Source: Falsarthrobacter nasiphocae (GTDB lineage Bacteria; Actinomycetota; Actinomycetes; Actinomycetales; Micrococcaceae). Taken from it: a stretch of DNA of 64,000 bases. The stretch covers positions 1,198,965 through 1,262,964 of the forward strand of contig NZ_JAVDUI010000001.1 in NCBI RefSeq assembly GCF_031456275.1, read 5' to 3'. The position numbers and the translations under genes are program-made. The notes beneath the pieces were generated by a model. The model was not told the DNA's origin, did not search any database, and saw only the letters and a list, made by a program, of their open reading frames with translations. Each line of letters opens with the position of its first letter. Positions within the stretch are counted from its first letter, which is position 1. Shown here in pieces: positions 2,812 through 8,677 of this stretch.

Positions 2812-5298
2812 TCAGCGCCGGCGGAGCAGCTCGTAGACCACGGAGTCGTCTTTGCGGCCCAGCCCCTCGCGGTGCCCGCGCTCGTAGACCTCCTGCGCGC
2901 TCGCGGCGAGCGGCACCTCCTGCCCGGCGGCCCGCGCGGCCTCGGTCACGAGCCCCATGTCCTTGACGAAGATGTCCAGGGCGGAGCGCACCTCGTCGAA
3001 GCTCTCCTCGACCATCCGCGCGCCGCGGTCCGCGAACATGAAGGACGCGGCGGCGCCGGTGCCCAGGACGTCGTAGCACTGGCGGACGTCGAGCCCCATG
3101 GAGGAGGCCAGCGCGAGCGCCTCGCCCGCTGCCGCGATGTGCACGCCGCACAGGAGCTGGTTGACGATCTTGAAACGCTGACCGTCGCCCGGCCGCGGGC
3201 CCACGACGGGCGCGTTGGACGCCATCGCGTCGAGGAGCGGGCGGACCGCCTCGACGTCCGTCTCGGCCCCGGAGACCATGACGAGGAGGTCGCCGGTCGC
3301 GGCACGGGCCACGCCGCCGGAGACGGGGGCGTCGACAAGCCGCGATGTCACGCCTGCCAGGCCGGTCAGCGCGGCCTCGATGGCCTCGGGCCCCACGGTG
3401 GCCATGACGAGGACGACCGTCTCCGGGGTGAGGGCGTCCGCGATGCCGGGGAGCGCCGGGCGTCCCTCCGCGGCGGGAGAGCCGAAGAGGACGGACTGGA
3501 GCTGCGGCCCCGTCGCCACCATGATGACGACGACGTCCGCGCCCTCCGCAGCCTCGCGCGCCGAGGCGGCGCCGCTGACACGGGGCGCCACCGCCGCGAG
3601 GGCGTCGGCGGACATGTCGAACGCCGTGACCTCGAGGCCCGCGTCCGCGACGGCCAGGGACATCGGTGAGCCCATGGCGCCGAGGCCGATCCAGGCGACG
3701 CGGGGTCGGGAGGGTGCAGTCATGGCGGTGGTCCTGTTCTCGGGGGTGGCCCCGTGGCGGTTCTCGTCGGTGGCGGTGGCGGGCCCGTTCCCGCCGGCGG
3801 CGCGCTCCCCGGGCTGGCCCTGCTGAGGGGCGGCGGCTGCGGAGAGCCGGTCGACGACGTCGGCCAAGGCCTCCTCGCCGCCGACGTTCCCCGGGAAGAC
3901 GACGTACGGGGCACCCAGGACGCTCTCGGGCGCCTCGACGGGGGTGAAGAGGGAGATCTGGCCGGGGAAGAACTGGCCTTCCACGCGGGCGAGGCGGATG
4001 CCGAGGCCGTTGTGCGCGACCTCGTGGGAGGTGATGCCGCCCTTTGCGACGACCCACGCGGGCCGCTCGGCGCGCAGGCGCTGCACGACCTCCACGACCC
4101 CGTCAGAGACGGAGCGCGCAATGTCCAGAGACTGCGCGGCGCTCTCCTCCCTCACCAGGTCCCGGCTCGTGTAGACGACCACGTCGGAGGTGCGGAGGGC
4201 CTTAGCTGCGGTCGTGACGGCGCCCGCGATGGTCTCCTCGCGCGTCTGCGGGTCCAGGAGGCGGGGCACGTTCAGCTCCACTTCCGCGAGGGTTCCGCGG
4301 CGCTGCACCGCCTCCAGCTGCTTCGTGGTCAGCCCCACGTGGGAGCCGACGACGACGAGGCCGTGGGGCGCGCGGCCGCCCTCAGGCGTCAGCGCCGCCT
4401 CGGTCAGGGGCGCGGAGGAGGACTGGCCGACCAGGGCGCGCACGAACGAGGGGCCGCAGCGGGTCACGAAGGTCCGCCCCTCTGCCTCGAGGCGCGTCAC
4501 GGCGTCCGCGACGACCTCCATGTCCGCGTACTCGGTGGCGTTGACCACGACCCACTGGCGGTCATGAGCGGCGGACAGGAGCTCGGCCACGCGGTCCGCG
4601 CCGCCGGTGCGGATGTCCTCGAGGGAGAGGGTGAGGACGTCGGCCGCCGAGGGCGTCCGCCACGGGGTGTCCGGGTGCTCGCGCCGGTGGGCCTCGCCCT
4701 TCTCGGCGAGGAACGCGGGCAGGTTCGAGGTGGAGTAGCCGAACGTGGCGTCCTGGGCGAAGTCGGTGTCCTCGACAGGGACGTCGCGGCCGTCAACGCG
4801 GGCGTAGTGGACGTTGTCCACCGTGGTGCGACCTGCCTCGATCATGGCGGGGCAGAAGAGGAAGGCGTCGACGGGTCGGCCGTGCTCGGCCAGCACGTCG
4901 GCGATCTCGTTGGGCTCCTCGATGACATGGCCGCGCAGGGTCGAGTCAGAGCGGGAGACGACGTGGAGCCCCGTCGCCGCCCCGTGCGGGGCCGAGACGG
5001 CGCCAGCCGCGTCGTCGTCCGCCCCGTTGGCACCGTCTGCCCCGCCACCCTGACGCGAGGCGCCCGCCCGCCCCGCCTCGGCGAGGTGGCCGGCCACGAC
5101 GCGACGGTTGGCCGCCCGCGCCTCCTCCGGGCCCAGCGCCCGGGTGTTCGTCAGGACGAAGCACACGCTCCCCTCCTCCCGCAGGGCCTCCGCGGTGATG
5201 CGGGGGTCCTCCTCGAAGGCGACGGCGACGCCGCTGACGCACTGGGAGCCGGTCGGGTCGTCGTCGAGGACGAGGAGGCGGCGGGGGGAGGGAAGCAT
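2812..5298 (-). CDS. Four-carbon acid sugar kinase fused to a threonate-dehydrogenase-like enzyme
   Basis: This 828-residue protein joins two enzymes. Residues 1 to about 475 match the DUF1537 (OtnK/DenK) kinase family: the N-terminal sugar-acid-binding motif LLVLDDDPTGSQ and the C-terminal nucleotide-binding AKGGITSHEVA motif (about 417-427). Residues about 480-525 are a Pro/Gly/Ala/Thr-rich linker. Residues 526-828 are an NAD-dependent beta-hydroxyacid dehydrogenase of the LtnD/3-hydroxyisobutyrate type (WIGLGAMGSPMS Rossmann motif, DAPVSGGVARA substrate motif, catalytic lysine in RFKIVNQLL). In known acid-sugar pathways the dehydrogenase oxidises threonate or erythronate and the kinase phosphorylates the product. 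Met526 is preceded by AGGA at good spacing, so a separate dehydrogenase could also be made. It lies 46 nt downstream of the permease, in one operon. Confidence 0.88.
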   Translation of the reverse strand: MLPSPRRLLVLDDDPTGSQCVSGVAVAFEEDPRITAEALREEGSVCFVLTNTRALGPEEARAANRRVVAGHLAEAGRAGASRQGGGADGANGADDDAAGAVSAPHGAATGLHVVSRSDSTLRGHVIEEPNEIADVLAEHGRPVDAFLFCPAMIEAGRTTVDNVHYARVDGRDVPVEDTDFAQDATFGYSTSNLPAFLAEKGEAHRREHPDTPWRTPSAADVLTLSLEDIRTGGADRVAELLSAAHDRQWVVVNATEYADMEVVADAVTRLEAEGRTFVTRCGPSFVRALVGQSSSAPLTEAALTPEGGRAPHGLVVVGSHVGLTTKQLEAVQRRGTLAEVELNVPRLLDPQTREETIAGAVTTAAKALRTSDVVVYTSRDLVREESAAQSLDIARSVSDGVVEVVQRLRAERPAWVVAKGGITSHEVAHNGLGIRLARVEGQFFPGQISLFTPVEAPESVLGAPYVVFPGNVGGEEALADVVDRLSAAAAPQQGQPGERAAGGNGPATATDENRHGATPENRTTAMTAPSRPRVAWIGLGAMGSPMSLAVADAGLEVTAFDMSADALAAVAPRVSGAASAREAAEGADVVVIMVATGPQLQSVLFGSPAAEGRPALPGIADALTPETVVLVMATVGPEAIEAALTGLAGVTSRLVDAPVSGGVARAATGDLLVMVSGAETDVEAVRPLLDAMASNAPVVGPRPGDGQRFKIVNQLLCGVHIAAAGEALALASSMGLDVRQCYDVLGTGAAASFMFADRGARMVEESFDEVRSALDIFVKDMGLVTEAARAAGQEVPLAASAQEVYERGHREGLGRKDDSVVYELLRRR

Positions 5299-5344: not shown

Positions 5345-6724
5345 TCAGGACAGGGCGCTGACGAGCGGCCAGAGGGCCAGGGCCACGAAGAAGCCGACGA
5401 CGGACGTGGCCGTGGTGGTCACCGTGTAGGACTTCAGCGCCGCCGAGGTGCTCACGCCGAAGTAGCGGCTCCAGACCCAGAAGAGCGAGTCGTTGACGTG
5501 GGAGAGGGCCATGGAGCCGATGCCGATGGTGATGGCCACGAGGGCCACCTGGAGCGGCGCGAGGCCCATGCTCGCGGCCAGCGGGGCGATGAGCGGGGCA
5601 GTGGTGATCGTGGCGACCGTCGCCGAGCCCTGGGCCGCGCGGATGAGCGCTGCCATGAGCCAGGCGAGCACGAGGATCGGCAGGCCCGAGGCGGAGAGGA
5701 CATCGGCGACGGCCTTGGCGACGCCGGTCTCGGCGAGGATGAAGCCGAATGTGCCGCCGGCACCCGTGATGAGGATGACGGCCGCGGTCGCGGGCAGGGC
5801 GGAGGCGACGACGTCCTCGGCGTGCTTGAGGCTCCAGCCGCGGCGGAAGCCGAGGAAGAAGATCGCGAGGAGGACGCCGATGAGGAGGGCCGCGGGGGAC
5901 GCGCCGATGAGCGCGAAGAAATTCCGGACCCACGAGCCCGCCGGGAGAGTCAGGGCGGTCACGGTCTGACCCATGATGAGCAGGAGCGGGATGAGGATCA
6001 TCGCGAGCACGAGTCCCATGCTCGGGAGGTTCTCCTCCGCGATCTCCTCGCGGGCGTTCGTCGCGGCGCCGGCCGCCTCCTCGCCCTCCACGGGGACGGG
6101 GGAGAAGACGCGGCGGACGATGAACCCGCTCATGACCTGGGCGAAGAGCCACATGATGACGGCGGGGATGAGGCCGAGGAGCAGGACCATGCCGACGTCG
6201 GCGCCCATGAGCTCGGAGCCGCCGACGATGCCGGGGTGCGGCGGGAGGACGACGTGCACGGTGAGGAGCGCCATGACGGTGGGGAGCGCGAAGACGAGCA
6301 TGTTGACGCGGCCGGTCAGGCGGCGGGCCACCGAGAGGACGATGGGCACGAGGACGATCGTGGCGACATCGACGAAGACGGGGATGCCGAAGATGAAGCT
6401 GGCCGCGCCGAGAGCCCACGGGGCGCGGCGGGGGCCGAATGTCTTCAGGAGGCGGTTGGCGAGGACGTCTGCGCCGCCGGAGACCTCGACGATGCGCCCG
6501 AGCATGGCGCCCAGGGTGACGATGAGGGCCACGCTGCCGAGGGTCTTGCCCATGCCCTGCTGCAGTGCGGGCACGACCTTCTCCATGGGGATGCCGGCGG
6601 CGAGGGCGAGGCCGACGGACACGAGGAGGAGGGCGATGAAGGGGTGTGTCCGTCCCTTGATGATGAGGGCCAGGATGACCGCCACCGAGGCGAGGCCGAG
6701 GAGGACCAGGATTGTTGTGGACAT
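5345..6724 (-). CDS. GntP-family gluconate/sugar-acid:proton symporter
   Basis: This 459-residue, strongly hydrophobic protein has about 12 membrane segments and the look of the GntP (gluconate:H+ symporter) family: an N-terminal LVLLGLASVAVILALIIKGR helix, the conserved PHPGIVGG motif near residue 165, and the C-terminal SHVNDSLFWVWSRYFG motif. It likely imports the four-carbon sugar acid used by the downstream kinase-dehydrogenase. A clear ribosome site (ACGGAG, 7 nt before ATG) supports the start. The promoter appears to overlap the palindrome at 6782-6803, so control by the divergent GntR-type regulator is expected. The exact substrate is inferred from the neighbours, not from the protein. 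Confidence 0.92.
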   Translation of the reverse strand: MSTTILVLLGLASVAVILALIIKGRTHPFIALLLVSVGLALAAGIPMEKVVPALQQGMGKTLGSVALIVTLGAMLGRIVEVSGGADVLANRLLKTFGPRRAPWALGAASFIFGIPVFVDVATIVLVPIVLSVARRLTGRVNMLVFALPTVMALLTVHVVLPPHPGIVGGSELMGADVGMVLLLGLIPAVIMWLFAQVMSGFIVRRVFSPVPVEGEEAAGAATNAREEIAEENLPSMGLVLAMILIPLLLIMGQTVTALTLPAGSWVRNFFALIGASPAALLIGVLLAIFFLGFRRGWSLKHAEDVVASALPATAAVILITGAGGTFGFILAETGVAKAVADVLSASGLPILVLAWLMAALIRAAQGSATVATITTAPLIAPLAASMGLAPLQVALVAITIGIGSMALSHVNDSLFWVWSRYFGVSTSAALKSYTVTTTATSVVGFFVALALWPLVSALS

Positions 6725-6924: not shown

Positions 6925-7656
6925 ATGAAGATGTCCGAGCAGACTGCGAGCCGGATTCTCAACGACATCGCCGACGGCGCCTTTGCCGTCGGCGAGCCCC
7001 TGCCCGCCGAGGCCCAGCTGGCCGAGACGTACTCCGTCTCGCGCCTCACCGTCAGGGAGGCGATCGTGAGCCTCGCCTCGCGGGGCGTCGTCGAGGTGAG
7101 GCACGGCAAGCGTTCCACGGTGGCGCCGGTGGCGAGCTGGTCCGTCCTGGACCCGGCGATCCTCATGCTTCGCGGGCGCCTCACCGAGGACTCGGCGAGG
7201 CTCGTCATGGAGCTCATTGAGGCCCGCAGGGTTCTCGAGATCGCCTTCGCGCGGCTCGCGGCCACGCGCATCACGGACGCGGAGATCGCTGACCTTCGCT
7301 GTCACCTCGGGGCCATGGTGGAGGCTCTGGATGACGACGACGCCCTGCGCAGCGCCCAGGCGGACCTCCGTTTCCACAGGGGGATCGTCGAGGCGGCGGG
7401 GAACCCGTTCCTCGCGGGCTCGTACGCGCCGCTGGAGCACGTGCTCATGGCGGTGCGCATCAAGACGAGCACCCCGCGCTCCGTGCGCCAGGATGCCATC
7501 ACCTGGCACGGGCGCATTCTCGAGGCGCTCGAGGCGCGGGACCCCGCGCGGGCTGCGGCCGCCATGCAGGGCCACATGGACCAGACGGCGGACGCGGCGT
7601 CAGGGATGGACCTGGGGCGCCCCGAGGCCTCGGCAAATTCATTTGGCGGAATATAA
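6925..7656 (+). CDS. GntR-family regulator with FCD effector domain
   Basis: The 243-residue protein has an N-terminal winged helix-turn-helix of the GntR type (about residues 5-70; VGEPLPAEAQLAETYSVSRLTVREAI and a wing VEVRHGKRSTV) and a C-terminal all-helical FCD domain (about 95-225) of the FadR subfamily, which usually binds a carboxylated ligand and a metal. AGGAG lies about 7 nt before the chosen ATG. Divergence from the permease-kinase operon, the palindrome between them, and the DenD gene directly downstream all suggest a local repressor relieved by a sugar acid. The natural inducer is unknown. Confidence 0.93.
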   Translation: MKMSEQTASRILNDIADGAFAVGEPLPAEAQLAETYSVSRLTVREAIVSLASRGVVEVRHGKRSTVAPVASWSVLDPAILMLRGRLTEDSARLVMELIEARRVLEIAFARLAATRITDAEIADLRCHLGAMVEALDDDDALRSAQADLRFHRGIVEAAGNPFLAGSYAPLEHVLMAVRIKTSTPRSVRQDAITWHGRILEALEARDPARAAAAMQGHMDQTADAASGMDLGRPEASANSFGGI

Positions 7657-7714
7657 ACATGAAGGAATAGACGCGGAGGGGGTGGAGCCCCCGCCCCGGA
7701 AGGGAGATTGGGCA

Positions 7715-8677
7715 ATGAAGATCATCATCACTGGAGGCGCCGGGTTCCTCGGCAGCCTCGTGGCCACGGAGCTGCTGCGAGCGGCGGACGCCGGTCAGGC
7801 CCCGATCCCCTTCGACGAGATCCTCTCCGTGGACCTCGCCCCCTGCCCCGTCCAGGACGAGCGCGTCACGTCTCTCGTGGGGGACCTGGCGTCCCCTGAT
7901 GTGCTGCGGGAAGCGGTGACGGCCGAGGTCGTCGGCATCTTCCACCTGGCCGCCGTCCTCTCCGGGGGATCCGAGGCGGACTTCGATCTGGCGATGCGCG
8001 TCAACGTGGACGGCACGCGGGCGCTGCTCGAGGCGGCGCGCGCCGCCGGCTCCGCCCCGCGATTCGTCTTCACGAGCTCCCTGGCGGTCTTCGGCGGGAA
8101 TGTCCCGGAGGTCGTCCCCGAGACCTGGGCCGCCCAGCCTGACTCGACCTACGGCGCGGCCAAGGCGATGGGGGAGCTGCTCGTCAACGAGTACTCCCGC
8201 CGAGGGTGGGTGGACGCGCGCATCTGCCGACTCCCCACGATCTCCGTCCGGCCGGGGGTGCCGAACTCCGCGGCGTCCTCGTTCGCGAGCGGGATCATCC
8301 GCGAGCCACTCGCCGGCGTGGAGTCCGTCTGCCCCGTGCCGCACGAGACCCGCATGTGGCTGAGCTCCCCCGAGGCCGCCGTGCGCAACCTGGTCTTCGC
8401 GCTCGGGGTGCCCGGCGAGGCGCTCGGCGCGTGGCGCGGGATCAACATCCCGGGCATCAGCGTCACGGTGGGGGAGATGCTCGCGGCGCTCGACGAGGTC
8501 GGCGGGCCGGACGCGCGGGCCCTCGTCCGGGACGAGCGGGACCCGGCCGTCGAGGGCATCGTGTGCTCCTGGCCCGGGGAGTTCGAGGTTCAGCGGCTCC
8601 TCGACGCCGGATTCACGCGGGACGAGGACTTCCTCTCCGTGGTTCGCCGCTACGCGGACGGTCTCGCCGCGCGCTGA
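7715..8677 (+). CDS. denD: D-erythronate dehydrogenase-like SDR (DenD type)
   Basis: The 320-residue product is an extended short-chain dehydrogenase/reductase. It starts MKIIITGGAGFLGS (NAD-binding TGxxGxxG), has the catalytic pair YGAAK (about residues 148-152), and carries the LPTISVRPG stretch typical of DenD proteins, which oxidise D-erythronate to 2-oxo-tetronate. The start at 7715 has GGGAG upstream and matches the start of the Rossmann fold; longer upstream frames are not coding. It follows the regulator by 58 nt and probably shares its transcript. The product would be phosphorylated by the DUF1537 kinase of the divergent operon. No PdxA2, OtnC aldolase or OtnI isomerase gene is nearby, so later steps must be encoded elsewhere. 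Confidence 0.85.
   Translation: MKIIITGGAGFLGSLVATELLRAADAGQAPIPFDEILSVDLAPCPVQDERVTSLVGDLASPDVLREAVTAEVVGIFHLAAVLSGGSEADFDLAMRVNVDGTRALLEAARAAGSAPRFVFTSSLAVFGGNVPEVVPETWAAQPDSTYGAAKAMGELLVNEYSRRGWVDARICRLPTISVRPGVPNSAASSFASGIIREPLAGVESVCPVPHETRMWLSSPEAAVRNLVFALGVPGEALGAWRGINIPGISVTVGEMLAALDEVGGPDARALVRDERDPAVEGIVCSWPGEFEVQRLLDAGFTRDEDFLSVVRRYADGLAAR

Follow-up and report, generated by a model that had tools for sequence, protein, structure and literature searches.

The DNA analyzed here, a window of 64,000 nucleotides from the actinomycete Falsarthrobacter nasiphocae (contig NZ_JAVDUI010000001.1, positions 1,198,965 to 1,262,964), carries on its minus strand a single open reading frame (ORF) of 828 amino acids, running from ATG to TGA, in which a DUF1537-type kinase is joined through a linker to a dehydrogenase resembling L-threonate dehydrogenase (LtnD). 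The fused gene lies downstream of a gene for a GntP-family permease, beyond which are a regulator gene and a gene for D-erythronate dehydrogenase (DenD; Table 1). We consider it probable that the product is a kinase and an LtnD-type dehydrogenase in one polypeptide, and that it arose by in-frame loss of the kinase stop codon in a GntP–kinase–dehydrogenase operon. The novelty is modest: the two enzymes are a known pair, and fusions of this kind have more than one origin.

Table 1. The fused gene, its parts and the adjoining genes, in window positions
Feature	Position	Strand	Evidence
Fused gene: DUF1537 kinase, linker, LtnD-like dehydrogenase	2812..5298	minus	ORF, Pfam, codon statistics
Kinase part, residues 1 to ~487, SBD_N and NBD_C	3838..5298	minus	Pfam
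Linker, residues 488-525	3724..3837	minus	Alignment, codon statistics, predicted local confidence (pLDDT)
Dehydrogenase part, residues 526-828, NAD_binding_2 and NAD_binding_11	2815..3723	minus	Pfam, NCBIfam, PDB match
Putative retained internal start: AGGA, 8 nt, ATG (Met526)	3721..3735	minus	Motif scan; position relative to split relatives
GntP-family permease, ending 46 nt upstream of the fused gene	5345..6724	minus	PF02447, 5.4e-121; TIGR00791 above cut-off
GntR/FCD transcriptional regulator, divergent	6925..7656	plus	PF07729, PF00392
D-erythronate dehydrogenase (DenD)	7712..8677	plus	NF043036, 422.1 bits, above the cut-off of 325

The fused frame and its domains

Four Pfam domains, each exceeding its curated cut-off, account for the two halves of the protein: SBD_N (E = 2.3e-40, in two stretches, the better at residues 103-289) and NBD_C (residues 314-478, E = 1.8e-31) in the kinase, and NAD_binding_2 (residues 533-697, E = 5.6e-33) and NAD_binding_11 (residues 704-824, E = 3.3e-29) in the dehydrogenase. 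Membership scores for DUF1537 kinases are 139.3 and 110.3 bits, compared with thresholds of 25 and 28.3. Neither a stop nor a frame break lies between the domains in this sequence, and the single kinase–dehydrogenase frame of 828 codons proposed in the initial annotation is thus upheld by its domains, its continuity and its codon statistics. The limits of the parts were only partly right: the dehydrogenase does occupy residues 526-828, but the kinase, which had been taken to end at about residue 475, ends at about 487-490, and the linker spans about 488-525 rather than 480-525. In most relatives with separate (split) genes, the kinase C-terminus lies 7-16 residues beyond the position aligned with window residue 480 (23-38 residues beyond it at loci L009, L029 and L032), and alignment with five relatives carries the kinase to window residues 487-490.

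Residues 488-525 have no counterpart in these five relatives, apart from a handful of tail residues, scattered by MAFFT, in L006 and L009, and they occupy the position of the intergenic gap in split relatives. Predicted local confidence is below 50 across residues 491-528. The linker is composed like coding sequence: A and T are distributed over codon positions 1, 2 and 3 as 9, 11 and 1 (38 codons; P = 0.002), the bias holds for the second half (P = 0.003), and the last 10 codons, not decisive alone, give P = 0.06. Per-codon log-likelihood is -3.49 in the reading frame versus -4.39 and -4.37 in the other two, and codon statistics therefore support one reading frame through the linker.

Both halves resemble those of split pairs, the kinase being 60-62% identical to its counterparts in L005-L009, L040, L041 and L044, and the dehydrogenase 66-73% identical to those in L005-L009 and L041. 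Across both domains, the window protein keeps all 160 of the 160 alignment columns in which at least 95% of the 67 other kinase–dehydrogenase rows share one residue, so that neither half looks decayed. The highest-scoring NCBIfam model for the dehydrogenase half is L-threonate dehydrogenase LtnD (NF043037), at 238.2 bits against a curated cut-off of 350; the dehydrogenases of L042 (245), L008 (264) and L009 (260) also miss this cut-off, which probably reflects other lineages. Membership in the beta-hydroxyacid dehydrogenase superfamily is indicated by the presence of both NAD_binding domains and by conservation of the stretch G538-M546, of D656-G662, and of K710 and N713, among which are presumably the glycine-rich motif and the catalytic lysine; a nicotinamide cofactor is presumed. 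Sequence and fold both point to 3g0o as the nearest solved structure; its title names YgbJ of Salmonella, which we take to be LtnD.

The kinase half matches two DUF1537 structures by fold (4xgj and 1yzy), and phmmer returned no match for it among PDB sequences even at E = 10. These fold matches come from a model built on an 11-row alignment (pLDDT 66.9, compared with 38.5 for single-sequence prediction), which suffices for recognizing folds; at a pLDDT of about 67, with values below 50 also outside the linker (e.g., residues 721-771), the arrangement of the domains and their contacts are not readable from it. The window protein scored 53.5 bits against the D-threonate kinase model NF047819, short of its curated cut-off of 450. 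Overall, similarity points to a four-carbon acid-sugar kinase, putatively of the 2-oxo-tetronate-kinase type.

The kinase also contains a low-complexity insert at residues ~77-106 (window 4981-5070, minus strand) that is absent from most aligned relatives; third-position GC over residues 74-108 is 0.86. In the kinase of L008, one insert occupies the corresponding position, and another, longer insert lies near window residue 307.

Split and fused pairs in Actinomycetota

In Actinomycetota, we counted 68 distinct adjacent kinase-then-dehydrogenase pairs, 65 of them split and three fused, which agrees with the earlier statement that the two enzymes are normally separate proteins. The fused ones are the window, L016 (the same as L040; genome G396) and L048 (G389). 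A search for the same domain order in other genomes, as the initial annotation had suggested, thus recovered two further fusions, both with the order and the four Pfam domains of the window. They differ from it in the distance between the places aligned to residues 480 and 533/534, which is 24 and 27 codons in L016 and L048 compared with 52-53 in the window, and the halves of L048 are only 31 and 36% identical to those of the window. The L048 fusion (787 aa; L048:5689-8052, minus strand) is flanked by genes that by eye look like a branched-chain amino-acid type, and its substrate may differ from that of the window protein.

The pairs were chosen by hand from matches in 142 of 396 genomes of the order and 33 of 396 genomes of the phylum, together with five loci from a genome scan, so that three in 68 is no unbiased frequency. 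Seven duplicates were dropped before counting (L040, L045, L110, L111, L112, L114 and L115), as were four split pairs: L031 and L123, with gaps above 900 nt; L128, cut short by the start of its contig; and L084, an unremarkable pair left off the list. No dehydrogenase match occurred in the fetched stretch of five loci (L022 and L113, from one genome, L116, L117 and L129). For the genomes of L034-L035 and L037-L039, G089 was counted as L108, the fetched stretches of G061 and G045 contained a kinase and no dehydrogenase, the G159 pair lies on different contigs, and the G282 genes lie on opposite strands. Equal lengths of the open frames were discarded as a sign of fusion, several such pairs having a stop between the genes.

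Fusion is mutationally easy. Of 62 intergenic gaps measured, 56 fall within the range -4 to +115 nt; 16 of the 65 split pairs share a reading frame, and in 14 of these a single stop codon separates the genes. That so many pairs stand one stop codon from fusion and so few are fused does not suggest that fusion is strongly selected, and argues against a large advantage.

On a quick-search tree, in which L048 is a very long branch, the distribution of fused and split states needs three changes, and three are forced by starred branches. The window's neighbours on it are split Rothia-type rows (support 93), and L016 is surrounded by split f11 rows. In a quick tree from which L048 was left out, a clade uniting the window with L016 was rejected (p-AU = 6e-5). 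The fusions are most simply read as independent, and because the window and L016 each sit among split rows, an old fusion followed by many splittings seems less likely.

The locus and the predicted pathway

The five-gene divergent set of the window (DenD, GntR, GntP, kinase and dehydrogenase) recurs in L005 (Rothia nasimurium), L008 (Rothia santali) and L041 (G374), the kinase and dehydrogenase being separate adjacent genes in these Rothia-type loci. At E < 1e-12, no GntR match was found in L009 (Mobilicoccus pelagius) and no DenD match in L007, from a Rothia metagenome-assembled genome (MAG). In L042 and L043, the kinase, dehydrogenase, GntP and a class II aldolase-like gene stand in a row. 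A promoter scan returned no promoter-like sites, and a terminator scan returned two terminator-like sites, both inside genes (chance mean 0.7).

A DenD gene scoring above its model cut-off, a GntP permease and a GntR/FCD regulator adjoining the fused gene fit the setting first proposed for it, the catabolism of four-carbon (C4) sugar acids. The locus probably takes up, oxidizes and phosphorylates D-erythronate and L-threonate: either acid would be imported by GntP, the 2-oxo acid would be made by the dehydrogenase part (from L-threonate) or by the separate DenD (from D-erythronate), and the kinase part would then phosphorylate it at C4. According to PMC12540250, bacterial LtnD oxidizes L-threonate as the first step, and two branches follow: in one, OtnI isomerizes, 3-OtnK phosphorylates and 3-OtnC, of the aldolase-II type, decarboxylates; in the other (taken there from Guo et al. 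2024), 2-OtnK phosphorylates the 2-oxo acid and 2-OtnC, of the class II aldolase type, yields dihydroxyacetone phosphate. The window shares with this second, three-step route the dehydrogenase and kinase families and the adjacency of their genes; it differs in that the two are fused, DenD is present, and no class II aldolase-like partner was found in the locus.

The last step is less easily assigned. The window genome (G000; one contig, 2.195 Mb, 98.6% complete) encodes one DUF1537 protein, the fused one, and at E = 0.001 contains no further match to it. At the same threshold, it has no match to OtnI (NF043033), to Aldolase_II of the OtnC type (PF00596) or to the PdxA family (PF04166), and its sole F_bP_aldolase match shares 26% identity with the class II aldolase-like protein encoded at L042. 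Neither the locus nor the genome thus shows the class II aldolase-like 2-OtnC of the three-step route, and the genome shows neither the pair of OtnI and Aldolase_II OtnC belonging to the four-step route nor the PdxA protein of a DtnK-PdxA2 type route. The same gaps occur in G401 (L009) and in G399 (L007; a 1.5-Mb MAG); in G399, F_bP_aldolase was not found either. The pattern is not uniform, however: a second F_bP_aldolase occurs in G398 (L005), and G374 and G400 gave Aldolase_II and OtnI-like matches under the cut-off. Two further families were tried as the third enzyme: OMPdecase (PF00215) has one full match in G000, presumably PyrF, and one partial match below cut-off, and HpcH/HpaI (PF03328) has four, three of them over cut-off and all outside the window, with no match in G396 or G399.

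PdxA2 oxidatively decarboxylates a 4-phosphate in the D-threonate route. A doubtful proposal is that the fused enzyme and DenD complete the pathway without the known decarboxylases, in either of two ways. The kinase might act first and the dehydrogenase part then oxidatively decarboxylate the 4-phosphate to a triose phosphate, two steps in one protein; or an enzyme of an unrecognized family might act on the 2-oxo-4-phosphate. If true, this would account for the state of the window genome, in which the pair is present and the known third enzymes are unmatched. The unmatched last enzyme is in any case a concrete, testable gap in C4 sugar-acid catabolism, and more interesting than the fusion itself.

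Beside the kinase–dehydrogenase pairs of L044, L040 and L006 lie GntP and a 3-hydroxyacyl-CoA-dehydrogenase-like gene (L044:4640-5608, L040:10438-11457 and L006:5560-6510), which may be an alternative first dehydrogenase replacing the DenD of Rothia-type loci. L006, from a Brachybacterium MAG, also has a PdxA-like gene (L006:3071-4060, minus strand) about 4 kb from the pair, and its genome is the only one with a PdxA match among ten searched.

Proposed origin and possible products of the fusion

Because the linker stands where relatives have an intergenic gap, the best and simplest account of the fusion is that the kinase gene lost its stop codon and translation then ran on through the spacer. 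Two neighbouring genes of a GntP operon, one for the kinase and one for the dehydrogenase, would have merged in frame, and the former spacer would have become a flexible linker of about 38 residues. The fusion looks young, judging from its split relatives, the spacer turned linker and the old start codon still in place, and together with two independent fusions for comparison it offers a snapshot of how such proteins form. Several points weigh against the proposal as a whole: the dehydrogenase half scores under the NF043037 cut-off, the known third enzymes of the pathway were not found in G000, and the order of the pair is not fixed, the dehydrogenase gene coming first in L168 (G213) and the two genes lying on opposite strands in L171 (G282), both of them split and outside the 68.

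The AGGA that had been noted ahead of Met526 at ribosome-site spacing is indeed there, 8 nt from the ATG. As proof of an internal start, however, the motif was rejected, because 342 of the window's 1395 ATGs, counted over both strands, have an equally good Shine-Dalgarno match (at least 4 nt, spaced 4-12 nt from the ATG). Among the 14 in-frame ATGs within the fused gene, only that of Met526 has such a match, and it coincides with the dehydrogenase start of split relatives; on this alignment Met526 preserves the start of a dehydrogenase gene that used to be separate, and this lends a second product more plausibility than AGGA alone would. A dehydrogenase-only product is therefore possible in this organism: the surviving ribosome site and ATG could yield some such chains alongside the full-length protein.

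A stronger version, that the fused frame is real but Met526 supplies most of the dehydrogenase, so that mainly two proteins are made and the fusion is a near-neutral accident, is possible, if on balance unlikely. It would explain why ATG and AGGA are kept at the ancestral start, and the number of split pairs one stop codon from fusion, with fusion itself rare, makes a chance origin feasible. The window's 4-nt match, however, is at the weak end of the range in split relatives, whose 72 called dehydrogenase starts (duplicates included, several of them GTG or TTG and perhaps wrong) have matches of at least 4 nt in 56 cases and at least 5 nt in 41. Moreover, the independent fusion L016 has no methionine at the corresponding place, so that a separate dehydrogenase seems dispensable in that lineage and the short product is not generally needed.

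We regard as distinctly unlikely the alternative that the fusion was selected for the channelling inferred in the initial annotation, in which the dehydrogenase would pass its unstable 2-oxo product to the kinase. One step directly follows the other in the three-step route as given in PMC12540250, three fusions have originated among the pairs counted here, and the same paper describes a plant fusion of dehydrogenase, kinase and aldolase; yet fusion is rare despite its easy origin, and the linker is predicted at low confidence. An assembly artefact, in which one extra linker base joins genes that truly overlap by 4 nt (ATGA), is very improbable: read in the +1 frame, the linker does run into a TGA precisely where the ATGA of Met526 stands, and such overlaps make up 7 of the 62 measured gaps, but the codon statistics of the linker favour the fused frame, though not decisively over its last ten codons, and L016 and L048 demonstrate that such fusions exist. 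A single polypeptide derived by stop loss remains the account we prefer.

Comparable proteins are known outside Actinomycetota. The plant LTD protein AT1G18270, laid out as LtnD-LtnD-OtnK-OtnC (four modules in one chain; PMC12540250), joins LtnD-type and OtnK-type domains as the window protein does, whereas in the latter the kinase comes first, the dehydrogenase last, and an aldolase module is lacking; a common origin of the two fusions is not implied. Among the open-licence papers listed in literature searches, titles and abstract openings revealed no bacterial kinase–dehydrogenase fusion of this order, which is weak evidence of absence.

Fusions of DUF1537 to PdxA likewise put the kinase first and join it to a dehydrogenase of a C4-acid route, but the dehydrogenase is a different one, PdxA belonging to a family unrelated to that of the window, whose genome lacks a PdxA match. 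DUF1537 is given as a fusion case in the pyridoxal phosphate (PLP) pathway in PMC4921024. We confirmed one such protein in Pseudomonadota, where 92 of 398 genomes held 147 SBD_N matches, 15 of which, with open frames of at least 649 aa, were inspected: the 819-aa frame L158:170-2626 (minus strand; G1096:C22) joins SBD_N and NBD_C to PdxA (358 bits). None of the 15 is a whole kinase–dehydrogenase fusion like that of the window, and 13 are long by virtue of a domain-less upstream frame, as judged by eye. In L163:1292-3301 (minus strand; G1121:C11), a NAD_binding_11 piece of 37 residues (28.2 bits against a cut-off of 30) lies upstream of the DUF1537 kinase, and is perhaps the remnant of a dehydrogenase gene.

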